A DNA stretch of 20,971 nucleotides from positions 1 to 20,971 of IMG/VR virus record IMGVR_UViG_3300044641_003691; one strand, 5' to 3'. The position numbers and the translations under genes are program-made. Below, in pieces: positions 2,705 through 20,971 of the stretch. The notes beneath the pieces were generated by a model. It searched no databases. It was not told the origin of the DNA and was given only the letters and a program-made list of their open reading frames with translations. This stretch comes from a virus. Position 1 is the stretch's first letter; each line of letters opens with the position of its first letter.

Positions 2705-2914
2705 ATGATCGCCGACACTCCAGAGAAGATTGCAGCCTATCAACTGCTAACCCTCAAGGCTATGCTCAAGCTTGAATCCTTGGGCATGAAGCATTCTAGG
2801 GGATCAATTGCGCCAACTGTGCGCCAAGTAATTGGCAGCAAGACACGCGATAAGAAAGCCTTGTTTGCTGAGTATGTCAACTTCCTGAAAAGCGAAGGTC
2901 TCTTACAGCCATGA
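2705..2914 (+). CDS. Small conserved-type phage protein
   Basis: This 69-residue protein starts 2 bases after its neighbour's stop, and its own stop overlaps the next start as ATGA. The sequence AYQLLTLKAMLKLESLGMKHSRG (about residues 11-33) resembles a family of small phage and cyanobacterial proteins with an LKLE..G(M/L)..SRG signature, a basic turn and a helical C-terminus. The function of that family is not known to me. The tight spacing implies co-translation with the lytic transglycosylase gene that follows. Confidence 0.75.
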   Translation: MIADTPEKIAAYQLLTLKAMLKLESLGMKHSRGSIAPTVRQVIGSKTRDKKALFAEYVNFLKSEGLLQP

Positions 2915-3255
2915 ATCTTACTGCCCTATTCCTCGCTATTGTCGCCGTTGAATCTGGCGGCAATGTCAACGCAATCGGTGATAACGGGAAGGCCGTAGGC
3001 CCGGCGCAAATCTGGGAAATTACGGTGAGAGATGTCAACCGCATCGCCGGAACGCGCTACACGTCAAACGATAGGCGCGACCTAACCAAGTCTGCTGAAA
3101 TGTTCCGAATCTACACGGACCACTATGGCAAAAGGTACGGTTGGCCTGTGACAGACGAGATTAGGGCGAAGGTGTGGAACGGTGGACCTAATGGTCCCAA
3201 GAAGTCCGCAACATCAACTTATTGGCGGAAAGTCTCTGCCAAGCTCAAACGATAG
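2911..3255 (+). CDS. Lytic transglycosylase-like endolysin (SLT fold)
   Basis: This 114-residue protein resembles small phage lysozyme-fold transglycosylases, which cleave the MurNAc-GlcNAc bond of peptidoglycan. The presumed catalytic Glu14 lies in AIVAVESGGN. It is followed by the conserved-type AVGPAQIW (about residues 28-35), a helix with VRDVNRIAG, and VWNGGPNG (about residues 89-96), which matches the YNGGP motif of SLT domains. The hydrophobic start is the catalytic helix rather than a clear signal peptide, so export would need a holin or another route. It begins inside the stop of the preceding gene. Its place in the early block rather than among tail genes suggests a free endolysin, although a virion-associated role cannot be excluded. 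Confidence 0.8.
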   Translation: MNLTALFLAIVAVESGGNVNAIGDNGKAVGPAQIWEITVRDVNRIAGTRYTSNDRRDLTKSAEMFRIYTDHYGKRYGWPVTDEIRAKVWNGGPNGPKKSATSTYWRKVSAKLKR

Positions 3256-3682: not shown

Positions 3683-3937
3683 ATGAGACACATACACGAA
3701 ATCGCTAGTGAGATTGAACAGAAGTGGACGCCCAAAGTTCATCCTTGGGCGCGGCCATATCTCGACGCTATGTCAACGCTCGAAAGCGTTAATGACAGGT
3801 ATGGATTCGATGATGCTAGCACCATCATCAACTATTTCCTCAGCAATGCCACAATGTGGCGCGGCGAGGATGCTCGTAGGCTCAAGAAAGAACTAAAAGA
3901 CATCATCAATGAAGCTCCTATCAGTCGGATCGGATAG
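3683..3937 (+). CDS. Conserved phage protein, function unknown
   Basis: This 84-residue protein carries the core WARPYLDAMSTLESVNDRYG followed by INYFLSNATMWRGEDARRLK (about residues 44-69). I recognise this pattern from many short phage proteins annotated only as hypothetical. The repeated aromatic and charged pattern suggests a compact helical fold. Its last 29 bases overlap the start of the GP88-family gene in another frame, so the two are probably translationally coupled. I know of no established function. Confidence 0.8.
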   Translation: MRHIHEIASEIEQKWTPKVHPWARPYLDAMSTLESVNDRYGFDDASTIINYFLSNATMWRGEDARRLKKELKDIINEAPISRIG

Positions 3938-4598
3938 CAAGACCACCAAGGGCGAGAAGTTTGGCTGGCGTACAGCCATTCTCTATCTCGCTCCTCACAA
4001 AGTTGCCCAACGTGGCAACGTTTGTTCGCACGCATCACTTGGCTGCATATTGTCCTGCCTATATAGCGCGGGACGTGGCGCATTCAGCAACGTGCAGCGT
4101 TCACGCATCAGCAAGACTCAATACTTCTTCGATGACCCAGCGGGTTTCCGCAAGCAACTCATCGAGGAGATCGAGGAGTTTGTGTCGCGTGCAAACCATG
4201 ATGGCATGGCTGCGTGTGTTCGTCTCAATGGCACGTCAGACATCCCGTGGGAAGGGTTGCAGATTATGCAACAGTTCCCCAAAGACATCATGTTCTACGA
4301 TTATACGAAGAACCATCACCGTGCATTGCGCTTTGCTCGCGGCGAACTTCCGCCCAACTACCACCTGACCTTCAGCCGATCAGAGTGCAATGAGATGGAG
4401 GCTCTCAAGGTATTGGAAGGTGGCGGCAATGTTGCAGCCGTGTTCTCCTGTCAACTGCCAGACAGTTGGCACGGCTACACCGTGATCAATGGCGACCTTT
4501 CAGACTTGCGATTTCTAGATCGTCGCGGCTGTGTCGTCGGCCTCAAAGCCAAGGGCGCAGCCAAGCGAGACACCTCAGGCTTTGTCGTCCAGTCCTAA
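3909..4598 (+). CDS. GP88-family protein with a possible metal or Fe-S cysteine cluster
   Basis: This 229-residue protein matches the phage gene product 88 family as I remember it. The start LLSVGSDSKTTKGEKFG leads to ILYLAPHK, then Cys39, Cys46 and Cys50 in NVCSHASLGCILSCLYSAGRG, then SRISKT and FFDDPAGF. Later come alternating strand-like motifs: VRLNGTSDIPWE (104-115), FYDYTK (129-134), YHLTFSRSE (151-159), NGDLSDLRFLD (194-204) and GLKAKG (211-216). The three clustered cysteines plus a beta/alpha repeat pattern recall Fe-S TIM-barrel enzymes, but the spacing (C-x6-C-x3-C) is not the classical radical-SAM one. The family function is unknown to me. The start overlaps the preceding gene by 29 bases. 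Confidence 0.8.
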   Translation: MKLLSVGSDSKTTKGEKFGWRTAILYLAPHKVAQRGNVCSHASLGCILSCLYSAGRGAFSNVQRSRISKTQYFFDDPAGFRKQLIEEIEEFVSRANHDGMAACVRLNGTSDIPWEGLQIMQQFPKDIMFYDYTKNHHRALRFARGELPPNYHLTFSRSECNEMEALKVLEGGGNVAAVFSCQLPDSWHGYTVINGDLSDLRFLDRRGCVVGLKAKGAAKRDTSGFVVQS

Positions 4599-7369: not shown

Positions 7370-7768
7370 ATGAAGATAGAACAACTGAATGAAACGCGTT
7401 GGAAGTACGATTTTCCGAGCCACTATCGGAAAGTTATCGCCGAGCTTGAGGCGGAGAACGCCGAGCTTCGCTCTAAGTTAAACGATCCCGCAGCCATCCT
7501 TATAGCTGGCGGTCATAACCTCACGCATGAACAGGTTGCCGCCTTGCTTGGCGAACGATTCGTGGCAGACATGAATCATCTCAGGGAGCAGAACCAACTG
7601 CTGCGCCGCGACCGCGAGCGTATGGACTGGCTCTCGGAAGAGGCGTTCTCGATACACATGCTGTTGGAATCTGGTGGTGTCGAAGTGTCGTGCAGGGATG
7701 GACGCTACGACGGCGAGACGCTGCGCGAAGCTGTTGACGAGGCCCGCAGGGAAGGAGGTGCGACGTGA
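7370..7768 (+). CDS. Coiled-coil paralogue 1 with an EGGAT tail
   Basis: This 132-residue protein has an N-terminal helix with KVIAELEAENAELRSKL, a middle part GGHNLTHEQVAALLGERF, and the family signature LLRRDRERMDWLSEEAF followed by LREAVDEARREGGAT at the C-terminus. The same signature, (K/R)DxxR(L/M)DWL then AIDxA, recurs in the proteins at 7765 and 11714. Small proteins of this sort are common in phages, and I know of no function. Its last codons contain AAGGAGGTG, which is the ribosome site for the next gene, and its TGA overlaps the next GTG. Confidence 0.75.
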   Translation: MKIEQLNETRWKYDFPSHYRKVIAELEAENAELRSKLNDPAAILIAGGHNLTHEQVAALLGERFVADMNHLREQNQLLRRDRERMDWLSEEAFSIHMLLESGGVEVSCRDGRYDGETLREAVDEARREGGAT

Positions 7769-8127
7769 GCACACCGTTGCAGGGTGGGAATCGACCCTCG
7801 CTTCTGGAGCTTTTGCCTAAGCTCCCCGTAAACATGGTTGCAGGCTGGATTGAAGAGCTAGAGCGCGAAAACGCAGCGCTGCGGCAGGATCGTGCGGAAC
7901 TTAAAATGTTGCGCGAATTGGTCGGTTTGCACAAAAACGCCAGAGCGTGCGTCAACGACGCGACACGCTGGCTTAAGTTAATGGATGCATGGGACGAGAA
8001 CGCCGCGCTGCGGAAGGACAAGGAGCGGCTGGATTGGTTGTTGGGGCAGGTCAACGATGGTATGTGTTTCGAGTGTTATGATCGCGCCGCCATCGACGCC
8101 GCCCGCAAGGAAGGAGGTGCGACGTGA
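7752..8127 (+). repeat. 17-bp stop/start junction cassette, copies 1 and 2
   Basis: AAGGAGGTGCGACGTGA occurs identically at 7752-7768 and 8111-8127. Each copy encodes the last four residues GGAT of one gene (preceded by Glu), provides a perfect Shine-Dalgarno (AAGGAGG), and holds the overlapping GTG start and TGA stop. Identity at the DNA level over the whole cassette goes beyond what the peptide alone requires. Confidence 0.8.
7765..8127 (+). CDS. Coiled-coil paralogue 2 with an EGGAT tail
   Basis: This 120-residue protein starts at GTG 7765, placed 6 bases after a perfect GGAGG. A first helix (MVAGWIEELERENAALRQDRAEL) is followed by AALRKDKERLDWLLGQVND and a tail with AAIDAARKEGGAT. It is clearly related to paralogue 1 in the DWL segment and tail, so the pair probably arose by duplication. 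The C-terminus again encodes the ribosome site of the next gene. Function is unknown. Confidence 0.75.
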   Translation: MSTPLQGGNRPSLLELLPKLPVNMVAGWIEELERENAALRQDRAELKMLRELVGLHKNARACVNDATRWLKLMDAWDENAALRKDKERLDWLLGQVNDGMCFECYDRAAIDAARKEGGAT

Positions 8128-10941: not shown

Positions 10942-11366
10942 TGCCTAAGCCGCCAAAGACTCGCTGCTCAGGGACATGGACAGAGGCTCGCTATTGGGGC
11001 TTCATTCGCTCTGCCCTGCGCCGAGCCTTCACCCGCTACCCAGTTAACTACCACGTTCGCAACGCAGCTAAACGCCCATACAAGGGTCCGAATAAGCTAC
11101 AGAAGAACGAGTTCCAATGCGGTGTGTGCAAGGAGTGGTTCATTCAGAAGTCCACTCAAGTGCATCACCTTGTAGAGTGTGGCTCACTCAAGAGCTACGC
11201 AGACCTCCCCGGCTTCGTTGAACGCCTGTTCTGCGAGGCCAACAATTTACAGGTCGTTTGCAAGACCTGCCACAACAACATAACACACAAAGAAGATGCT
11301 AAACCTAAACGACAAGGAAGACCAAAAGCGAGCCGAGTGGATGGAAAAGCACGTCAATGTCATTGA
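10941..11366 (+). CDS. HNH endonuclease-like protein
   Basis: This 141-residue protein has an intact HNH zinc and catalytic layout: Cys60-x2-Cys63 (FQCGVCKEWF), the VHH motif at residues 74-76 (STQVHHLVEC), NNLQVVC around residues 101-107, and CKTCHN (Cys107, Cys110, His111). The N-terminus, with RYWGFIRSALRRAF and YHVRNAAKRPYKGPNK, is basic and aromatic and probably binds DNA. This form is common in podovirus replication blocks. It could be a free-standing homing-type nickase or a replication or packaging-related nuclease. Its last 71 bases overlap the next gene. Confidence 0.8.
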   Translation: MPKPPKTRCSGTWTEARYWGFIRSALRRAFTRYPVNYHVRNAAKRPYKGPNKLQKNEFQCGVCKEWFIQKSTQVHHLVECGSLKSYADLPGFVERLFCEANNLQVVCKTCHNNITHKEDAKPKRQGRPKASRVDGKARQCH

Positions 11367-11541
11367 TATGTACATTGGCGAACCTGATCTGGACAAGCCA
11401 ATGGGTGACCCTACAGCCAAGGTGCTTTACAAGATCCACTACACCTACGATAATCAGAATCATACAATCGTGTGCGATCATTCGTCGATAAGGGACGCCG
11501 TTGATCGGGCCATGGAAGTTACTGAAGGAGGTGCGACGTGA
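11296..11541 (+). CDS. Paralogue 3 with an EGGAT tail
   Basis: This 81-residue protein starts MLNLNDKEDQKRAEWMEKH at ATG 11296, preceded by AAAGAAG. An internal ATG at 11341 would reduce the unusually long 71-base overlap with the HNH gene, so the start is uncertain. The middle is strand-rich (KVLYKIHYTYDNQNHTIVCD) and the end, SIRDAVDRAMEVTEGGAT, matches the tails of the other paralogues although the DWL segment is absent. Its stop and the next GTG lie in the 17-bp junction cassette. Confidence 0.7.
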   Translation: MLNLNDKEDQKRAEWMEKHVNVIDMYIGEPDLDKPMGDPTAKVLYKIHYTYDNQNHTIVCDHSSIRDAVDRAMEVTEGGAT

Positions 11542-11717
11542 GTCCTTTACAGCAGCAGCAGTATGAACTTTTTCTCTCAATGGGATGGGAATATTCACAC
11601 ACAGAAGCCAATGGCGACATCGTTGTGGAGCATTGGACTCGCGGCTCACGATTAACCAATTCACATATCATCAAAGCTGATAGTGACGCCACGAAAAAGG
11701 AAGGAGGTGCGTCGTGA
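11538..11717 (+). CDS. Short protein with an EGGAS tail
   Basis: This 59-residue protein starts at GTG 11538 in the junction cassette. It begins MSPLQQQQYELFLSMGWEYS, has a probable strand pair (DIVVEHWTRGS) and ends DSDATKKEGGAS. It has no DWL motif, so only the cassette links it to the paralogues. The start is well supported by the GGAGG 6 bases upstream, and the stop overlaps the next GTG. No family was recognised. Confidence 0.7.
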   Translation: MSPLQQQQYELFLSMGWEYSHTEANGDIVVEHWTRGSRLTNSHIIKADSDATKKEGGAS

Positions 11718-11956
11718 GTTGGATTGACCCGAATAACCAGTTGGATCGGGAAGCACCTGTTTTCAAAGCGGTAAGGCAAGATGAACTTATCGACCTACAG
11801 AAAGACAGAAAAAGGTTGGATTGGCTTAGTAGCTACGCAAGCTCTCACCGTTATCCGTGGGGTGTTGCATGGGGCTTTGCTGCACCAAGCCATTCTCAAG
11901 ATCTTCGGGAAGCTATCGACAAAACTATGGAAACCACACAAGGAGGTGCGTCGTGA
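11714..11956 (+). CDS. Paralogue 4 with a QGGAS tail
   Basis: This 80-residue protein starts at GTG 11714 behind the cassette. It contains LIDLQKDRKRLDWLSSYAS (about residues 25-43) and DLREAIDKTMETTQGGAS at the end, so it belongs to the same family as the proteins at 7370 and 7765. The middle is rich in aromatics (YPWGVAWGFAAP). The family looks like a short coiled coil plus a conserved tail. Function is unknown. Confidence 0.72.
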   Translation: MSWIDPNNQLDREAPVFKAVRQDELIDLQKDRKRLDWLSSYASSHRYPWGVAWGFAAPSHSQDLREAIDKTMETTQGGAS

Positions 11957-12123
11957 CACTCACAGACAAGCAATATGATGAAATGTTGGAGGCCGCAAAG
12001 CCACTTATGACATGGATTCGCGAAAACGGCCATCCACATTGCGTTGTAACGGTAGACACGACTTTTGTTGAACTACTGGAAGGCGTTGCAATCAGACGTG
12101 TTGAGGAGGGAGGCGCATCGTGA
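11953..12123 (+). CDS. Short protein with an EGGAS tail
   Basis: This 56-residue protein begins MTLTDKQYDEMLEAAKPLMTWI at GTG 11953. That start is set by the cassette ribosome site and the overlap with the preceding TGA, so a longer in-frame reading from 11857 is rejected. It has one N-terminal helix, a Cys/His-containing turn (ENGHPHCVVTVD) and a second helix ending RRVEEGGAS. Its stop overlaps the next GTG in the most diverged cassette copy. The function is not recognised. Confidence 0.7.
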   Translation: MTLTDKQYDEMLEAAKPLMTWIRENGHPHCVVTVDTTFVELLEGVAIRRVEEGGAS

Positions 12124-12515: not shown

Positions 12516-13502
12516 ATGAGCACACAAAACCCCATTGGATCAGCCATCGTCGATGAGATGCTGGCTAAGTACCCCGATCTTCCGAGCGCACAATTGGCTC
12601 GCATGATTTACAAGGAGAACCCAACTGTCTTCACCAACCAAGAGGCTGTGCGCAATGCCATCCGCTACCGCCGTGGGGCAACAGGGAAAGCCCACAGGGA
12701 AAAGGTTAACTTAGAAGCCCCAACCACCCCCGTGCGTACCATCCCCAAGTCTTGCGTTCGTGAGTGGTCTCCATTCATCATGGATGGGGTGAAGAAGGTG
12801 GCTATCCTCTCAGACATCCACGTTCCCTATCATACGGAAGATGCCATTGAGTGCGCGGTGAAGCGTGCCAAGAAGCAGGAGGTGGACGGCATCATTCTCA
12901 ACGGCGACACCATCGACTGCCATGCCCTGTCTCAGTTCATACGGGACCCCCGCGCTCGATCCTTCAAGCAGGAGCGGGAGACCACGAATGAGCTACTAGC
13001 CTACCTACGCGAGCAATTCCCCACTCAGCGCATCGTTTGGCGCGACGGCAACCATGAGGACCGCTTCAAGGCTTACATGATGCAGAAGGCTCCCGAGGTG
13101 TATGACGAGAAGTTCTTCTCCATCGACAAGCTACTCAACTTTGAGGATCTCGACATTGAGTATGTCACCGACAAGCGCATCATCATGCTGGGCGGCTTGG
13201 CCGTGATGCATGGGCATGAGTTCCACAAGGGCTTCGCACCCCCGGTAAACCCTGCTCGCGGAGCCTACCTCAAGGCCAAGCAGAGCGTCATGGTCGGCCA
13301 CCACCACCGCACCTCAGAGCACACGGAAACGGCCCTAGACGGGACGATGACCACTACTTGGAGCGTAGGGTGCCTCTCGGACCTACACCCCGCTTATAGC
13401 CCATACAACAGCTATAACCACGGGTCAGCCATCGTCACCCTAGACGGCAACTACTACGAGGTGGCTAACTACCGTATCGTCAACGGACGAGCGTTGAATT
13501 AA
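12516..13502 (+). CDS. Calcineurin-like metallophosphoesterase with an N-terminal HTH-like region
   Basis: This 328-residue protein carries the full set of metal-ligand motifs of the calcineurin-like phosphoesterases: SDIH (99-102), NGDTID (129-134), DGNHED (177-182), MHGHE (231-235) and GHHHR (261-265). Such enzymes cleave phosphomono- or diesters with two metal ions. The substrate here is unknown and could be DNA, RNA or a nucleotide. The first ~60 residues (EMLAKYPDLPSAQLARMIYK, then TNQEAVRNAIRYRRG) resemble a DNA-binding helix-turn-helix, which would favour a nucleic acid substrate. It is the last rightward gene, and its stop codon overlaps the stop of the convergent virion gene by 4 bases. 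Confidence 0.87.
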   Translation: MSTQNPIGSAIVDEMLAKYPDLPSAQLARMIYKENPTVFTNQEAVRNAIRYRRGATGKAHREKVNLEAPTTPVRTIPKSCVREWSPFIMDGVKKVAILSDIHVPYHTEDAIECAVKRAKKQEVDGIILNGDTIDCHALSQFIRDPRARSFKQERETTNELLAYLREQFPTQRIVWRDGNHEDRFKAYMMQKAPEVYDEKFFSIDKLLNFEDLDIEYVTDKRIIMLGGLAVMHGHEFHKGFAPPVNPARGAYLKAKQSVMVGHHHRTSEHTETALDGTMTTTWSVGCLSDLHPAYSPYNSYNHGSAIVTLDGNYYEVANYRIVNGRALN

Positions 13503-16500
13503 TAACCCTCATTATTACGAAGGATGTTCATCTGTTGCATGACATCCTTTGTAATCAGGTTACGGCGAATGGCATTCTGCACAAAGGTGTTGTAGTCACC
13601 AGACTCCTTTGCCCTCTTGTGCAAGTAAGACGCACGCTCGCCATCAGCAATACCAAGGGCCAAGATAAGTCTATCCTTGGCATCAATGCCCCTAGCTTTA
13701 TAGTTAAGATCTTGCTTCCTAAGATTATTCAAGCTTTGAGCGAGGGATGCGGTTTCCCTAGAGCGAGCAAGCTTTCTGATTTCTTCCATTTGCTTTTCAG
13801 CCGGAAGCACAGAAATCACTTCACTCCAATACTCTGAAGGAGTTTGCCGCTTAACTCGTGGAAGATCCGGGATCTCCTTGTCAAATGCAGCAAGGATATC
13901 CTTAGACGCAACCCCACCATCACGCATGATTTGAACGATGTCATTATCGTTCATTCCAATGGTGCGAAGACTATCAACGTGCCGTAGCACAATAGCCATC
14001 GCATCTCGGCGAGCTTGATTACTCTTCTGGTACTGAGCCTCGATGTCCTGAGGCGACAGATTGCGATAGTCCCTAGCAGCGGTGTAGTCTCCAGATGCAA
14101 GCTGAATGCGATCAGCAAGAGACTTGAACTTAAACCGCGCGTTTTCCTTTACGTTGATAGGATTGAACCGCGCACCAAACTGACGCGCGAGTACATCCTC
14201 AACAGTAAGATCGCCCTGTCCACGTTGAGCTTCGCCAAGCTTCTTGGCTTCTCGTGAGAAGCCCGGGGTAAACGCATCCTCAACAAAGAACTTGATAGCA
14301 TCCTTAGCGCGTTCAAACGGCTTGGTCTGATAGCTGATTGGTTTACCCGTGCGCGGATTGAAACCAAGAACCGCAGAGTAGAGAGATCGAGCAAAGAACG
14401 ATCCCTCTCCAACAAGTTCTTGAGCAATCAGATTGGCAACAGAAGATGAATCTGCACCATTGAGTCCAGCTTCAAAGGCTGACAACGCTGTAGCGTGCGG
14501 AATGATGTAAGACGGATTGGCGTATTTGCCAGTCATCGTCTTCTTATCAAGCGTCATTGCCAGCATACGCGATTGATCGTAGTCTGGAATGGCAACATCT
14601 CGCAGAGCGTTCTCGGTCTTCTGGTCTACACCATTCTGCTCATTAAACACCTTGATAGCACCAGCCGTTCCTGCGTATAGGGTGGTTAATGCAGCCAAAC
14701 GCTTGGCACCCTCAATCTGCATACGGCGTCTATCGGCTGCACCCAAAGCAGCCACGCCCTGACCAAACGTTCCATTAAGCATCTGCCTAATGATGCGTCC
14801 CTGATGATACTGGTTACGAGCAAACTCTAGCGTAAAAGAAGCGAACTGCGGAATGAATCCAAGACGTGACGCCTTCTTCAAAGACGAAGAAAGTTTTTGG
14901 TAGTTCTGATAGGTGTCATTTGTAATTTCAGCAGCAAACAACTTAACCATCTCAGGACTAGCAGATGGAAACACATTGCTAACCATCTTTTGATTAGCCT
15001 TCCAAGATACATAACGACCGACCGTATCTGGAATTGTATACGTTTTGGCAAATGGATCTAACCCTTTTTGAAGAGCCTTGCCAAAAACGCCAGTTTCTAG
15101 GCCAGAACGAATATCGCTATCAAGGATGTTGGCACCCTTAATGCCATACTTAGTCATCTCTTGAATGTCATTAAGCAATGCCTTACGGGCCTCTGGATTC
15201 TTAGTCAGCCGTTCAATTGGACCAAACTCAGAAACGGCAAGACGAAGACCACGGGAGAAGCCGTTGCCAAATGGATTGATCCCCTGACCTAAAAGATTTG
15301 CAGCATTTCCATAAAACTGCACCGAGTAGGAAGCTGGATTCAATAGAACTTTAACAGCCTTAGATCCACTAACTCCAGACTCAATAGAGTCCTTCAATGT
15401 ACGGAAGGCCATGTTGCCAATCTCTTCATCGGCATTGCTAAGATACAACTCATTGATTGCATCTTGAACATGAGGTGGAACAAACAACTTTGGCGCATCA
15501 CCCGGAGCACGACGAAGCTTAAGTGGCACGAACATCGGATCGGTTCGGTTTTCCGTACCAATGCCAAGACGTTGGAAGTTCTTGATGATCTCTGAGTCGG
15601 TGGCATCCCGATAGACAGACCTAGCCAAGCGGCCCATCGTCCCAGCAACGCGCTCACCGGGATCAGTAATTTCTCCAAGGTAGCCCCTAAAAGCCGGACC
15701 AAGCTCAGAGCGACCCTTCATAAATCCATCAATAGAAGATGGATAGAGATTGAACGATCCAACCTCAGACAGCTTCTTGAGGTCAATGTCGTCTAGATAC
15801 TGAGAGGCTCTAGACAAAGATTGCTCACGGGTAATTGGAGAGCCAGCGGTATTTGCCTCAAGATAGAAGGAGTTAGCCAACTCATCAACAGCCGCTTGCC
15901 GCTGCTGCTTAGTCGGGAAGTACTTCTTATCGGTGAAGAATCTATACTCACGGGTAAGGTAGTTGCCACGATCCATCGACTGCTGGATAATGGAGTTAAC
16001 ACGCTGACCATTATCTAGCAGCTTTCCGCCCAGCGCATTGTTGGGATCGGGCGTGATGCCAGCATCAATGTTAGACAGCAACTGCTTCTGAAGATCCAAG
16101 ATCTTCTCTCGCGCCAAATCCAAGTCTGTCTGAATCGACTTCAATGATCCCGGCAGACTGTTCGTTTCGCCATCCAAGTAGCTGTTAATAGCCCGTTGTG
16201 CTTCAACTGGATTGGCGTCTCTAGCGATAGTCTTTTGAATATTCTGGCGCAGACGACCACCCATCTCAAGTGTACCAGCCACCGAGTTCTTGAACCTTAG
16301 GATGGCTTCATTGCTATCATTTCCAATTGCGCGGGATGGGGCAAGCGCAGCAAAGAACTGGCGAGTCTTTTCTCCCTTGGGACCAATAAGTTCAGACGGC
16401 CTTGTAACAGCAGCCTCAAATACAGGCATATCGGTAGCCTTAATCTGAGCAGTTTCTGCCTCCCGCTTCAAAGCGTTTCCAAGCTGCACAACAGCAGGAT

Positions 16501-17971
16501 CTTGTGAGGCGGGGCTAAACTCGTCTGGTGCAATAGTGCCAGAGCGAATCATCTGATCCACCTCCTGTGGAGACTTACTACGAATCTTGTTCCATAGGGA
16601 CGAGCCTCCCTTGAACATCGTAGCAAACAGCTTTGGGTCAGCAGCCAATCCTGCTCCTGCCCCCAGCGCAGCGTACTGAAGCTTCTCTTCTGGAGTCTCA
16701 CCTTGTGTAGCTCCAATGGCTGCACCAGTTCCAGATCGAGCCAAACGGAAGGCAAGATCTAGGGAGATCTGACCGCCCTCAAGTCCCATCTTGCGTGCGC
16801 CAGCACGACCACCAATGCCGGGAATATTCTCAACGTCTTGAAGAACTTCTTCAGTAGTTGGAAGGGGTTGCTCTTCTGTAATGCCAAGCTTCTTCTCTAG
16901 GCGAGCACGCTCCTTTGCTGACGCACCACGTCTAGCATCCAGCATATCAAGCTGAATCCTATCAAGCGGCGTTTCTGGATTGTAAGTAACAGTCTCTGGT
17001 CCCTTCAAACGAGCACCAAGGAACGAAACCAAGTCTTCCTCGATCTTAGCCTTCTCCGTCTTAGCCTCAGCAAACTGTCTAGCAAGTTCCTCACGGCGTG
17101 CAGGACCAACGTCACCAGTAAAGACAGCAGCAGATTCCTCTGCGGACTTAGCTGGGAATACAGCGGCAGACTCCTGTGCCGACTTGCCAGTAGCATTCCT
17201 TACCAAACCAAGTTCTTCGCCAACAGCGTCAATGATTTCGGTAGCAACAGCCTTCTCTTCTGGCGTCCCGTTTACAGTAAGTTTGCGGACTTCCTCAACA
17301 GGATTGGCACTCTCGTTGCCAGACACCCGGTTCCATAGTTCCCTAGCCTTAGGGGACAGCTTCTGAATGCCTCGGCCAGCCAAGCCAAATCCAGCACCAA
17401 AGGTTGCACCACCAGCCCCATATGCAAGAACCTCCTGAGCAGTAGGCGGACGACCTTCGTCAACAATAGCCGTTGCCGTGGCTTCTCCTGCGCCAATAGC
17501 CGCGCCACGAAGAGCCTCCTTTCCAACTGCCGTAGACAGCTTTACACCACCCTTGGCAGCACTAGATCCCGGTATTAGGTTAATAGCACCAGCAAACAAA
17601 GCACGGCCAAGGCTAATGTCATCGCGCCCCTCAATCTTTTGAGCAGTAAGAGACCCACCTACGCCAGACGTAAATGCAAGTACTGGGTAGGAGATGCCAA
17701 GCGTAAACGGCATAAGCGCAGCCCCGGTAGCTTGCCCAGCCATGCCAATGCCAACCTCCGCTGCAAGACCAGCCGCGATTTTAGTGAGGTTTGGGTCTTC
17801 AGCAGGAGTCTTATCTACTGGCTTTGGCGTTTCCTCTACTGGCTTAGCAGTAGCGGCTTTTGCTGAATACTCAGAAAAGATCTTTTGAAGCTCTTCTTCT
17901 GTCGGCGGACGATCACCAGTCAGCTTTAACGTAACACCAGTTTTCTTATCAGTTACCCGGTAGGTAGGCAT
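13499..17971 (-). CDS. Large internal virion / DNA-ejection protein
   Basis: At 1,490 residues this is the largest gene. It starts MPTYRVTDKKTGVTLKLTGD then RPPTEEELQKIF, a start I recognise from large virion proteins of podovirus-like phages. Ala/Gly-rich hydrophobic segments follow at about residues 64-112 (GLAAEVGIGMAGQATGAALM) and further on (ALFAGAINLIPG, YGAGGATFGAGFGLAGRG), suited to membrane insertion during DNA ejection. The rest is long and helical, ending with ITKDVMQQMNILRNNEGY. The size and last position in the late block match the T7 gp16-type internal core protein. No lysozyme or protease motif was found by eye. The upstream virion gene is 20 bases away. Confidence 0.75.
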   Translation of the reverse strand: MPTYRVTDKKTGVTLKLTGDRPPTEEELQKIFSEYSAKAATAKPVEETPKPVDKTPAEDPNLTKIAAGLAAEVGIGMAGQATGAALMPFTLGISYPVLAFTSGVGGSLTAQKIEGRDDISLGRALFAGAINLIPGSSAAKGGVKLSTAVGKEALRGAAIGAGEATATAIVDEGRPPTAQEVLAYGAGGATFGAGFGLAGRGIQKLSPKARELWNRVSGNESANPVEEVRKLTVNGTPEEKAVATEIIDAVGEELGLVRNATGKSAQESAAVFPAKSAEESAAVFTGDVGPARREELARQFAEAKTEKAKIEEDLVSFLGARLKGPETVTYNPETPLDRIQLDMLDARRGASAKERARLEKKLGITEEQPLPTTEEVLQDVENIPGIGGRAGARKMGLEGGQISLDLAFRLARSGTGAAIGATQGETPEEKLQYAALGAGAGLAADPKLFATMFKGGSSLWNKIRSKSPQEVDQMIRSGTIAPDEFSPASQDPAVVQLGNALKREAETAQIKATDMPVFEAAVTRPSELIGPKGEKTRQFFAALAPSRAIGNDSNEAILRFKNSVAGTLEMGGRLRQNIQKTIARDANPVEAQRAINSYLDGETNSLPGSLKSIQTDLDLAREKILDLQKQLLSNIDAGITPDPNNALGGKLLDNGQRVNSIIQQSMDRGNYLTREYRFFTDKKYFPTKQQRQAAVDELANSFYLEANTAGSPITREQSLSRASQYLDDIDLKKLSEVGSFNLYPSSIDGFMKGRSELGPAFRGYLGEITDPGERVAGTMGRLARSVYRDATDSEIIKNFQRLGIGTENRTDPMFVPLKLRRAPGDAPKLFVPPHVQDAINELYLSNADEEIGNMAFRTLKDSIESGVSGSKAVKVLLNPASYSVQFYGNAANLLGQGINPFGNGFSRGLRLAVSEFGPIERLTKNPEARKALLNDIQEMTKYGIKGANILDSDIRSGLETGVFGKALQKGLDPFAKTYTIPDTVGRYVSWKANQKMVSNVFPSASPEMVKLFAAEITNDTYQNYQKLSSSLKKASRLGFIPQFASFTLEFARNQYHQGRIIRQMLNGTFGQGVAALGAADRRRMQIEGAKRLAALTTLYAGTAGAIKVFNEQNGVDQKTENALRDVAIPDYDQSRMLAMTLDKKTMTGKYANPSYIIPHATALSAFEAGLNGADSSSVANLIAQELVGEGSFFARSLYSAVLGFNPRTGKPISYQTKPFERAKDAIKFFVEDAFTPGFSREAKKLGEAQRGQGDLTVEDVLARQFGARFNPINVKENARFKFKSLADRIQLASGDYTAARDYRNLSPQDIEAQYQKSNQARRDAMAIVLRHVDSLRTIGMNDNDIVQIMRDGGVASKDILAAFDKEIPDLPRVKRQTPSEYWSEVISVLPAEKQMEEIRKLARSRETASLAQSLNNLRKQDLNYKARGIDAKDRLILALGIADGERASYLHKRAKESGDYNTFVQNAIRRNLITKDVMQQMNILRNNEGY

Positions 17972-17991: not shown

Positions 17992-19071
17992 TTACTCTAC
18001 CTCAACAGTAAATCCACTAGATTTAGGAAACAAACTCTGCAAGTCACCAACTGTGACAATACCACCTAGTGAGTTCTTGAAGCCACTAGCGCGTAGAAGT
18101 CTCACGGCCTCTCCGGAGTTACCAGAATTGTAGGCATCCTCAGCTTGCTTAAGGATAGTCTTTTTAAGTTCAGTATCCTTAGCAGTAGCAGTAAGACGAC
18201 CAGAGGTAGCCGGAAGAATTTGAGGAGGCTTTCCGGGAACGCTAACAACGATAATGCTTTCGCTAGCACCACCCGGAAGGTCAACAGTCATAACAGAACT
18301 CCTGACATTAGTAGGATCTGAAGATGACGCCTTAGCCTCTGAAACGCTCTTCCAAACCTCTGAAGCCTTTTCTGACGGCAATCCAGACTCTTGAATGCTC
18401 TTCATGAAGTCCTCAAAGCTAGAAGAAGCATTGGCAATATTCACAAGACTATTGGCCTGTTGATTCTGTCTAAGTTTTGCAGCTTCAGCACGAGCAGCTT
18501 CACCAGCATCAGAAAGGTTCTTAATAACCTGAGAAGAAACAAGTTCTCCCTGACGGGTCTTAGCCTCACGCTCCATCTCTTGATTGTTGAAGATTTGCAA
18601 TGCGCGGGGGTCGGCTTTGCCAACAACAACATCAAAAAACCCAGACTTCTTGGCCTGCTCAAGTTCAGCAACCTGAGCAGCAATCTTCTTCTGGTCCCGC
18701 TTCTCAGCCTTGGCACTAGAGATATTGGCATAAGTCATAATGCCATCAGAACCTACTGCCCTAACAGCGGCTTCGGTTGCGGCTTTGTCAAACTTACCCT
18801 CGTCGTCAGCTAGGAACGAAAAGCCTTCTTTGTCATTATTGTAGGCTTTCTCTAAGAAGCTGATCGTATTAGAGATCTTCTTCTCTTCTTCCTTCTTTTT
18901 CTTGTAATCGCGAATTGCGCCTCCAGCAACATTTCCAATATTAGCAATGCTTTGAGCCAAAGCCGCATTGCCCTGTGCAGAAAATTGCTGGGCATTACTC
19001 ATGCCTTGGAAAAGCGGTGAATAATCAATCCGGCCAAGTCCTGCTTGAATGTTTGATCCGATGCGTGCCAT
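17992..19071 (-). CDS. Internal virion-type protein
   Basis: This 359-residue protein lies just upstream of the large internal virion gene. It begins MARIGSNIQAGLGRIDYSPL and continues with NAQQFSAQGNAALAQSIANI (residues 26-45), an Ala/Gln-rich opening typical of phage ejection proteins. A highly charged segment (YKKKKEEEKK, residues 56-65) and long helical, Ala/Lys/Glu-rich stretches follow, ending FPKSSGFTVEVE. By position and composition it is probably a second internal core or DNA-ejection protein. The start lies about 3 bases after a terminator-like hairpin and T-run, and no ribosome site is visible. Confidence 0.65.
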   Translation of the reverse strand: MARIGSNIQAGLGRIDYSPLFQGMSNAQQFSAQGNAALAQSIANIGNVAGGAIRDYKKKKEEEKKISNTISFLEKAYNNDKEGFSFLADDEGKFDKAATEAAVRAVGSDGIMTYANISSAKAEKRDQKKIAAQVAELEQAKKSGFFDVVVGKADPRALQIFNNQEMEREAKTRQGELVSSQVIKNLSDAGEAARAEAAKLRQNQQANSLVNIANASSSFEDFMKSIQESGLPSEKASEVWKSVSEAKASSSDPTNVRSSVMTVDLPGGASESIIVVSVPGKPPQILPATSGRLTATAKDTELKKTILKQAEDAYNSGNSGEAVRLLRASGFKNSLGGIVTVGDLQSLFPKSSGFTVEVE

Positions 19072-19074
19072 AGA

Positions 19075-19099
19075 TAGAAAAATGGCCTAAAACGCCATT
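19075..19099 (-). terminator. Intrinsic terminator or attenuator after the SET gene
   Basis: On the minus strand AATGGC pairs perfectly with GCCATT across a 7-base loop (plus positions 19081-19086 and 19094-19099), followed by a five-T run that begins in the stem end. It lies 44 bases downstream of the SET-domain gene and directly before the start codon of the 359-aa virion gene. It may end the upstream transcript partly and act as an attenuator for the virion genes. Confidence 0.5.
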
Positions 19100-19142
19100 A
19101 GGACGCCGTAGACCGGGTTAAAGCCATTCCCCCTATCTTACA

Positions 19143-19532
19143 CTAAGATTTGGCTTTGCCTAGCTTCTGGGAGCAGAGAACATCGCTCTCTTGGCAAATA
19201 AGAAGCTCTTCCCCAGCCGCTATATTCCTAGTGGCTACAATAACGGGTTCGCCATTAAGAATGGCCTCAGACTCGGCCGTATTGGTTTCGGCTTCGCTAT
19301 CCGAAAAATTCCACCACCTAGCCAAGTCTCCGCAAATTGTTAGCGTCTTTGGATTAAGACGGCAAACGTACCCAAAGTGGATTTGCGCTGGGGTAGCCTT
19401 AGCCAAATCAACCGACTGGTCTACTTCGGGGCTGAAGTAGTAAACAACCGTGTTCTTAGGAATTGGATCTAAAGCAAACAGCCCATTGCCATGCTTAGGG
19501 CTTTTCTTGGCTTCAACCCTTACTGTTATCAT
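19143..19532 (-). CDS. SET-domain protein (possible lysine methyltransferase)
   Basis: This 129-residue protein looks like a minimal SET domain, the fold that transfers methyl groups from SAM to protein lysines. It has KHGNGLFALDPIPKNTVVYY (13-32, the GxGLFA motif), a middle with ARWWNFSDSEAETN (71-84, in place of the usual N-H-S-x-x-P-N), and VIVATRNIAAGEELLI (97-112, matching ATRDIxxGEEL). The His of NHS is Phe here, and the final catalytic Tyr is not obvious (ICQES), so activity may differ. I use ATG 19532, not a TTG 6 bases upstream. It overlaps the PP-loop gene by 20 bases. Such genes are rare in phages, and the substrate is unknown. Confidence 0.75.
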   Translation of the reverse strand: MITVRVEAKKSPKHGNGLFALDPIPKNTVVYYFSPEVDQSVDLAKATPAQIHFGYVCRLNPKTLTICGDLARWWNFSDSEAETNTAESEAILNGEPVIVATRNIAAGEELLICQESDVLCSQKLGKAKS

Positions 19533-20334
19533 CGCCAAAATAGTCCATAGCTACATCCTGATACGGGATCTGGTCTGAGATGTTGCTCACTTGGCATTGC
19601 AGCTTGGGGCAGTAAACCGACTTTTCCTTACTGCGGCGATCAATGCATCTAATGCAAACATTGGCATAGTCGCTATTAGCCCACTTGTCATCCCACTCTT
19701 TCTTTGTGGAAGGGTTATACCTGTTCCATTGCTGAGGAACGGAGTTGGCCTCTGTGTACTCCCAAATGTCATCATCAGTCCAATGGCGAAGCGGAAAGGC
19801 AAAATCTGGAATGCCGGGAGCATTCTTCTTGATGTCAACGTGCAGTTTAACGCTGCCAGCAATCTGGTCTACATCGCTAGACTTGTGACCAACAAACATT
19901 ACATCCCAAGGAAAGGAAAAGGAACCCTTTGGCCTATTAAGCAGATCTAGGCCGCAAACCCACTTCCTTCCAGCTTCGGGTTCCAGAATGTTCTTTGGTA
20001 GCTTGAGAATGGCATTACTTGAATAGCCAACCTGATAGTGGTTGGTAAATGCCATGATTTCCTTGCCTTCCCACATCGTGATTTCCGAAGGTGGATAGTC
20101 ATATACCTCAAGACCCCAAACGTTGATTACCGAGTCGGCAAACTGATACTTTTGGGGCCACCAAGGATCTCGATAGAAAACGATCTTGGGCTTAAATCCG
20201 TGCGAAACAAGAATGTGCAGCAATACCATGCTGTCCTTGCCAAAGGAACACATCATGGCCGGATTCTTGTAATTAGCTAAAACCTTGCTAATTAGCGAAA
20301 CGCTATCCTTAACCAAAGCGGGAATATCAGGCAT
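19513..20334 (-). CDS. PP-loop ATPase, PAPS reductase-like
   Basis: This 273-residue protein belongs to the adenine nucleotide alpha-hydrolase / PAPS reductase superfamily. Its PP-loop is SFGKDSMVLLHIL (30-42). Further family features are FYRDPWWPQKYQF, GHKSSDVDQ (149-157, in place of the usual GxRxxES) and FPLRHWTDDDIWEY (180-193). It lacks the C-terminal ECGLH motif of true sulfate-assimilation reductases. Instead it has Cys127 (VCGLD) and a cluster Cys227, Cys230, Cys242, Cys247 that could hold zinc or an Fe-S cluster. It probably activates a substrate by adenylation, as in DndC- or TilS-type enzymes, rather than reducing sulfate. I use ATG 20334, just after a GTG. It is coupled to the SET gene. 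Confidence 0.85.
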   Translation of the reverse strand: MPDIPALVKDSVSLISKVLANYKNPAMMCSFGKDSMVLLHILVSHGFKPKIVFYRDPWWPQKYQFADSVINVWGLEVYDYPPSEITMWEGKEIMAFTNHYQVGYSSNAILKLPKNILEPEAGRKWVCGLDLLNRPKGSFSFPWDVMFVGHKSSDVDQIAGSVKLHVDIKKNAPGIPDFAFPLRHWTDDDIWEYTEANSVPQQWNRYNPSTKKEWDDKWANSDYANVCIRCIDRRSKEKSVYCPKLQCQVSNISDQIPYQDVAMDYFGDDNSKG

Positions 20335-20369
20335 CACTATCTGCTAGTGATGCGCGAGTGCTTGGTCAA

Positions 20370-20971
20370 TTAGAAAAGGGCAGCCGCTAAAGTTGCAGCA
20401 GCGGTAATACCAGCACCAGCAAGAGACTTGTTGCCAGCCGACCTCTGAGCGGCAGCACTAATGTTTGCCCCTTGAATACCAGCTTGGTAGTTAGCCAAAT
20501 TCGTAGCATTGGCAAGGGCCAGATTAATGCCAGCGTCAGGATTAAAAACATTACCGCCAAGGCCTTGCTGAGCCATGCCAAGTTGATTCTGGCCCATAGC
20601 CACAGCGTTAGACGGGCGACCCAAGACAACAGACATCGGATCAAACGCCGCACCGTACATACCAACAAGGTTTTGCTGGTAGCCGCGATTCGCCGCCAAC
20701 TCGCCCTGACGAGCCTGACCAAGAAGGGCAAGATTAGAAACGCCCCGTTGCTGTTGGTCGGCTTGGAAGCCACGGTTTTGAAGGCCGAGGTTCGCCATCA
20801 TCTCCTGATTAGTGAGGCCAACCTGCGTCTGCGTAGCCTGATTGGCTAGGGCAGTACGCATCGCAGCATCCAAGTTAGCTTGTCCAGCGACGTTAGTAGC
20901 CTGAGCACCAAATTGTGAGGCTTGGTTAAGGGCATCTAGGTTAGCCATGCCAAACTGATTTTGGGCAGCTT
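20370..20971 (-). CDS. Ala/Gln/Asn/Gly-rich virion-type protein (N-terminus outside the window)
   Basis: The reading frame is open to the right edge without a stop. The residues before the first internal Met (QNQFG) continue the same Gln/Asn-rich pattern, so the true start is probably outside. The visible ~200 residues contain many short, helix-like Ala/Gln/Asn repeats (ALNQASQFGAQATNVAGQAN; NRGFQADQQQRG) and end in a hydrophobic Ala-rich segment (AGITAAATLAAALF). This composition is typical of internal or tail-associated ejection proteins in the podovirus late block. No enzymatic motif was seen. It ends 35 bases before the PP-loop start. Confidence 0.65.
   Translation of the reverse strand, partial: AAQNQFGMANLDALNQASQFGAQATNVAGQANLDAAMRTALANQATQTQVGLTNQEMMANLGLQNRGFQADQQQRGVSNLALLGQARQGELAANRGYQQNLVGMYGAAFDPMSVVLGRPSNAVAMGQNQLGMAQQGLGGNVFNPDAGINLALANATNLANYQAGIQGANISAAAQRSAGNKSLAGAGITAAATLAAALF

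Follow-up and report, generated by a model that had tools for sequence, protein, structure and literature searches.

A viral SET gene family adjoins a PP-loop gene and probably works with it as one unit

The window, meaning here the whole stretch of DNA that was analysed, comprises an entire IMG/VR virus record of 20,971 bases. A PP-loop gene and a SET gene overlap in it on the same strand, and both lie among internal-virion-type genes (Table 1). The initial annotation had described two overlapping reading frames at this place, and our analysis reproduced the positions of both, the 20-base overlap and the location among virion genes; the motifs SFGKDS, GNGLFA and ATRNIAAGEELLI were also found. 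Translational coupling across the overlap is possible. No family match was obtained for the protein encoded upstream of the PP-loop gene. The 359-aa protein encoded downstream of the SET gene is kept in relatives with the SET gene and in those without it. The 1490-aa protein has a relative with 35% identity in Phage C75C1 (L141, 1-8700), which also has a frame of more than 2,500 codons upstream and lacks the PP-loop gene.

Table 1. Features of the PP-loop/SET locus and its surroundings in the window.
Feature	Position	Strand	Description
Upstream flanking gene	20370-20948	(-)	192 aa; Ala/Gln/Asn-rich, internal-virion type
PP-loop gene	19513-20334	(-)	273 aa; ATG start, alternative GTG at 20337 possible
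Overlap of PP-loop stop region and SET start	19513-19532	(-)	20 bases, ATG to stop
SET gene	19143-19532	(-)	129 aa; ATG start, alternative TTG at 19538 possible
Intergenic stretch between SET gene and 359-aa gene	19072-19142	(-)	71 bases; weak hairpin
Downstream flanking gene	17992-19071	(-)	359 aa; internal-virion type, GRIDYSP N-terminus
Large internal-virion-type gene	13499-17971	(-)	1490 aa

Some other features of the window were recorded. Positions 3909-4595 match Gene product 88 strongly (PF17338, E 3.8e-48), and a small lytic transglycosylase (SLT, E 3.1e-5) is encoded at 2911-3255 on the plus strand, in the early-side gene block. At 7370-8127 and 11296-12123, consecutive small genes share an -EGGAT/-GGAS tail that overlaps the next start, perhaps a ribosome site embedded in the coding end.

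We searched the PP-loop protein against profile libraries and solved structures. It matched PAPS_reduct of Pfam (PF01507) with an E-value of 1.1e-9 and 39 bits against a cut-off of 22.5, and a profile built from an alignment of its relatives reached CysD at 1.1e-14 among the solved structures. The AlphaFold2 model had a pLDDT of 93.1. Its closest fold was CysD (1zun_A), with a Z score of 15.1 over 162 residues, and further structural matches included FAD synthase, PAPS reductases, TtuA, NcsA and LarE. The PP-loop fold, for which profile searches and structure prediction had been proposed as a check, was thus assigned rightly, with a Pfam score above the cut-off and a confident model.

The protein contains the motifs SFGKDSM and GHKSSDxDxxxG and the cysteines C127, C227-x2-C230 and C242. 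SFGKDSM was invariant in all 33 aligned PP-loop proteins, and so, in sequence, were C127, C227, C230 and C242 (33/33); H150, D154, D156, G160, P181, W191, R205-Y206, N220, D222 and P243 were likewise invariant. At another locus (L159, 2941-4202), a SET-linked PP-loop protein carries the classic SGGKDS in place of SFGKDS, with the K and D kept. In profile alignments, the K and D of SFGKDS are as in CysD (SIGKDS), unlike PAPS reductase (SSFGIQA). The absence of ECGLH, the C-terminal catalytic motif of CysH, which had been noticed in the window protein, extended to all 33 aligned proteins. The NCBIfam equivalog cut-off for PAPS/APS reductase (CysH) was missed by a wide span (31.2 vs 154 bits), as were the CysD subfamily cut-offs (42.1 vs 195 and 39.6 vs 396.6 bits), and the DndC, TilS and TtcA families gave no profile match in NCBIfam or PADLOC. 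At the level of sequence, the intact K and D of the motif, the cysteine pattern and the missing ECGLH together speak less for a PAPS reductase than for an ATP pyrophosphatase that carries a metal or Fe-S site.

The SET protein was analysed in the same way. It matched Pfam SET (PF00856) with an E-value of 2.3e-6 and 28.4 bits against a cut-off of 22.4, and its relatives scored 23-43 bits. A profile from the alignment of these relatives retrieved the solved structures of MLL1 (E 2.6e-12) and vSET (1.8e-5). The AlphaFold2 model (pLDDT 91.5) matched vSET with a Z score of 11.3 and a TM score of 0.80 by target length, and MLL1 and EZH2 with Z scores of about 11. A SET fold had been predicted for this protein, and both the Pfam score and the model agree with it. 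The accompanying remark that SET proteins are rare in phages is broadly right, with the qualification that annotated SET proteins also occur in other uncultured Caudovirales phages.

Although the fold is that of vSET from the chlorella virus PBCV-1 and of MLL/EZH2, the phage family lacks two residues of those enzymes, the His of NHS and the Tyr of ELxYDY. The residues H14, G17, C67, D69, N75, F76, N84, E109, L110 and D117 were invariant in 19/19 SET proteins, which means that the GxG SAM-loop (G17) and the Asn of NHS (N75) were retained throughout. The His of NHS was replaced by F in every PP-loop-linked SET, where the motif reads NF(S/A/P/G), so that the NHS-to-NFS change noted in the window holds for the family. 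The catalytic Tyr was F, Q, T, L or P, or was deleted, in every linked SET. SAM binding is possibly intact, and methylation via another residue is possible. A solo SET protein of the huge phage LR756504 (L140), which is likewise small and phage-borne, was matched by the linked-SET profile at 70 bits. It differs from the linked proteins in keeping NHS and ELTDDY, the ELxYDY loop of the linked SETs being shortened by comparison, and no PP-loop relative was found anywhere in its 636-kb record. Loss of the canonical SET residues thus appears to coincide with PP-loop linkage, as judged from one solo protein in a distant alignment. The dN/dS values were 0.10-0.25 for the SET gene and 0.02-0.06 for the PP-loop gene. 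Both genes are under purifying selection and not decaying, and these low values indicate that both make working proteins.

Scans of IMG/VR with single proteins and with alignments yielded 30 further contigs carrying the window's SET family. Searches elsewhere were less productive: tblastn with the window's SET and PP-loop proteins yielded no relative of use among 50,697 phage records, tblastn with diverged PP-loop members found almost none, and a scan of genome contigs returned weak PP-loop matches only. In all 31 distinct viral contigs, window included, a PP-loop gene was the immediate same-strand neighbour of the SET gene; the scan patterns favour the 'NF' type, and this count therefore describes the window's SET family and not all phage SETs. 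The SET gene lay downstream of the PP-loop gene in 18 contigs (window included) and upstream in 13; the spacing between the two profile matches ranged from about -10 to about +35 nt. Among the linked contigs, the most diverged proteins share about 42% (PP-loop) and about 35% (SET) identity with those of the window, indicating that the link is old. In a tree of 54 PP-loop rows, a single branch (support 93/83) separated all SET-linked rows from the rest, and one change was needed to explain them. Furthermore, SET and PP-loop distances correlated (r 0.60, 10 representatives, Mantel p 0.001), an agreement that is partly due to shared phage ancestry. The SET gene of this family always adjoins a PP-loop gene and moves with it, and the pairing is far beyond chance. 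The neighbourhood survey therefore bore out the tight linkage that had been proposed, and no unlinked homologue turned up in the window's SET family. A literature search on SET with PAPS reductase, phage, cyanophage and polyvalent proteins found no such pair, in line with the initial statement that no system joining the two in phages had been described.

The wider history of this slot was examined in 80 kept PP-loop loci, of which 26 had a SET gene and 54 did not, some of the latter being fragments. When 44 whole records were searched with PF00856, which covers SETs outside the 'NF'-type scan, 17 had a SET and the other 27 had none anywhere. The phages lacking SET have their PP-loop gene at the corresponding position: an Ala/Gln-rich internal-virion-type gene lies on one side of it, a 'GRIDYSP'-type gene on the other, and a gene for a very large protein is found further downstream. 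We compared a contig with both genes (L015) with four that carry the PP-loop gene only (L085, L090, L092 and L094). The flanks were 76-86% identical at the DNA level, and the homology broke off within the PP-loop gene, about 107 bases from its start, and resumed just past SET. Conserved flanks around such a break indicate that a block of PP-loop and SET was swapped for a SET-less PP-loop gene, or the reverse.

These comparisons fit poorly with the proposal that the two genes form an inserted moron. Relatives without SET still have the PP-loop gene at this place, and the corresponding slot of Bcep22-like podophages also holds a 'PAPS reductase', which two papers have termed a moron (PMC9144972, PMC10269572). 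In addition, no sigma-70-like promoter was found in the scanned region, where the scan looked for that promoter type only, and the terminator-like hairpin at 19081-19099(-) is at chance level, the region containing 3 such sites against 3.8 expected from shuffles. The fold of the intergenic stretch had a z score of -1.74, and in one relative (L008) a stem pair is lost with no compensating change; a terminator downstream of the pair is thus doubtful. The intergenic stretch itself showed only 0-2 base differences among seven contigs whose SET genes had a dS of 0.13-0.26; some regulatory function different from simple termination is possible. The PP-loop gene is a long-standing resident of the slot, also without SET, and the accessory part is the SET gene or, more exactly, the slot in its PP-loop+SET form. 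The PP-loop slot is of a known kind; its SET-bearing version is new.

Two SET-free loci had other enzyme-like neighbours. At L104 (3321-3992), there is a 4-base overlap between the PP-loop start and the gene for a class I SAM methyltransferase (Methyltransf_11, E 1.4e-15). A general theme of PP-loop plus methyltransferase was considered and dropped, as L104 stood alone and a family search of 34 records gave no other methyltransferase there. At L059 (4771-5796), a sulfotransferase-like protein (PF17784, E 0.0011, below the Pfam cut-off) is encoded directly downstream of the PP-loop gene.

Among known systems, the closest in gene order are the Bcep22-like podophages (JC1, DC1, CSP3; Lessievirus), whose 'PAPS reductase' has the PP-loop/PAPS-reductase fold. 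DC1 gp64-gp67 share with the window and with contig L013 the order of internal-virion-type gene, PP-loop gene, virion-associated gene and giant internal protein gene. The Bcep22-like protein is Cys-rich as well (CC...CxxC). However, no SET partner is annotated in that stretch, which has an acetyltransferase two genes upstream instead, and the protein is a member of phrog_424 (E 1.7e-39), to which the window protein has a weak match (7.6e-6). CysD, the small subunit of ATP sulfurylase, resembles the window protein in fold and in the K and D of the PP-loop, but no CysN partner was seen. CysD is not known to carry the C127/CxxC/C242 set. TtuA, NcsA and LarE, which are [4Fe-4S] PP-loop sulfurtransferases, share the PP-loop fold (Z about 10-12) and the CXXC-C pattern; the likeness comes from fold and cysteines, and there was no sequence-family match. 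In LarE, a PP-loop sulfur insertase, the CXXC-C set binds a [4Fe-4S] cluster (PMC9283937), whereas the tetracysteine of the PP-loop amidotransferase NASAT holds a structural zinc (PMC10607449). By analogy with NASAT, the four cysteines of the phage protein may form a structural zinc site instead. For the SET protein, Prdm14 provides an example of a non-catalytic SET domain serving as a protein-binding module (PMC4749557). Its PR/SET domain and the phage protein, for which we claim homology of fold only, may both bind a partner instead of methylating, although Prdm14 is a multi-domain regulator of eukaryotes in which the Tyr position is kept.

We propose that the two genes form a co-inherited cassette in the late virion block of a podophage-like group of uncultured viruses, in which the PP-loop protein would be the catalyst and the SET protein its dedicated, non-canonical partner; we put the probability of this reading at about 0.4. 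The PP-loop protein would split ATP into AMP and PPi, adenylating a group on the substrate. A metal or Fe-S site bound by its cysteines (C127, C227xxC230, C242) would allow it to transfer sulfur, or some other nucleophile, to a late-phage substrate, either a virion protein or a nucleic acid. The SET protein, without the residues of canonical lysine methyltransfer, would serve the PP-loop enzyme by binding SAM, the substrate (e.g., a lysine tail) or both, and would not be an ordinary lysine methyltransferase. Given the late position of the genes, the proteins may act on the virion or be packaged in it. A more specific version, in which an ATP-dependent PP-loop enzyme and a Tyr-stripped SET holding a lysine or SAM substrate carry out an undescribed modification of virion protein or nucleic acid, is doubtful as it stands.

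Several other explanations were weighed against the evidence. The SET protein could be a functional lysine methyltransferase whose active site is unusual; it would methylate a virion or host protein, and the PP-loop protein would act on or prepare the same target. The genuine SET fold with its GxG and Asn and the purifying selection on the gene agree with this, yet the Tyr position is altered or deleted and the NHS His always replaced, and we regard it as unlikely. The target suggested in the initial annotation, a Lys-rich stretch of the 359-aa neighbour, offers it little help: the segment reads QYQKNKEERDF in L015, which has SET, and NYQKNKEERDF in L090, which does not, so the stretch is not special to SET-bearing phages, and the linked SET proteins lack the catalytic Tyr. 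Virion lysine methylation is thus unsupported. We give a similarly low chance to the idea that the two proteins travel inside the virion and leave it together with the DNA, to modify incoming DNA or host proteins against defence, much like the Dar-type antirestriction cargo. The pair always lies between internal-virion-type genes just upstream of a very large internal protein, and the Bcep22-like equivalent is followed by a virion-associated protein and a DarB-like protein. However, PADLOC gave no match, and gene position by itself is no proof of packaging.

Thiolation of host or phage tRNA or DNA by a PP-loop protein of the TtuA/TtcA/DndC kind, with SET as a regulatory or scaffold partner only, is less probable still. 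It would account for TtuA, NcsA and LarE among the structural matches and for the cysteine pattern, as opposed to the missing DndC, TilS and TtcA matches in NCBIfam and PADLOC and the lack of a visible tRNA-binding domain. An auxiliary sulfate-assimilation enzyme, namely a PAPS reductase aiding cysteine synthesis of the host with SET as an incidental neighbour, is very improbable. The PF01507 and distant phrog_424 matches and the annotation of the Bcep22-like slot gene speak for it; nevertheless, the ATP-type K and D are intact, ECGLH is absent, no NCBIfam reductase cut-off was reached, and the 31/31 linkage to SET would be left unexplained. Chance adjacency, for which nothing more than the general compactness of phage genomes can be cited, may practically be dismissed given the linkage in both gene orders and in diverged lineages and the exchange of PP-loop and SET as a block.

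The PP-loop and SET proteins probably work as one unit with a chemistry that is not yet described. PAPS-reductase-like genes of phage virion blocks are routinely labelled sulfate-metabolism genes. In one large clade, the invariant SET partner, the intact ATP motif and the four-Cys site argue for a different, testable role. A SET fold that has lost the catalytic Tyr, is under purifying selection and is always tied to an ATP pyrophosphatase would represent an unusual use of this fold.
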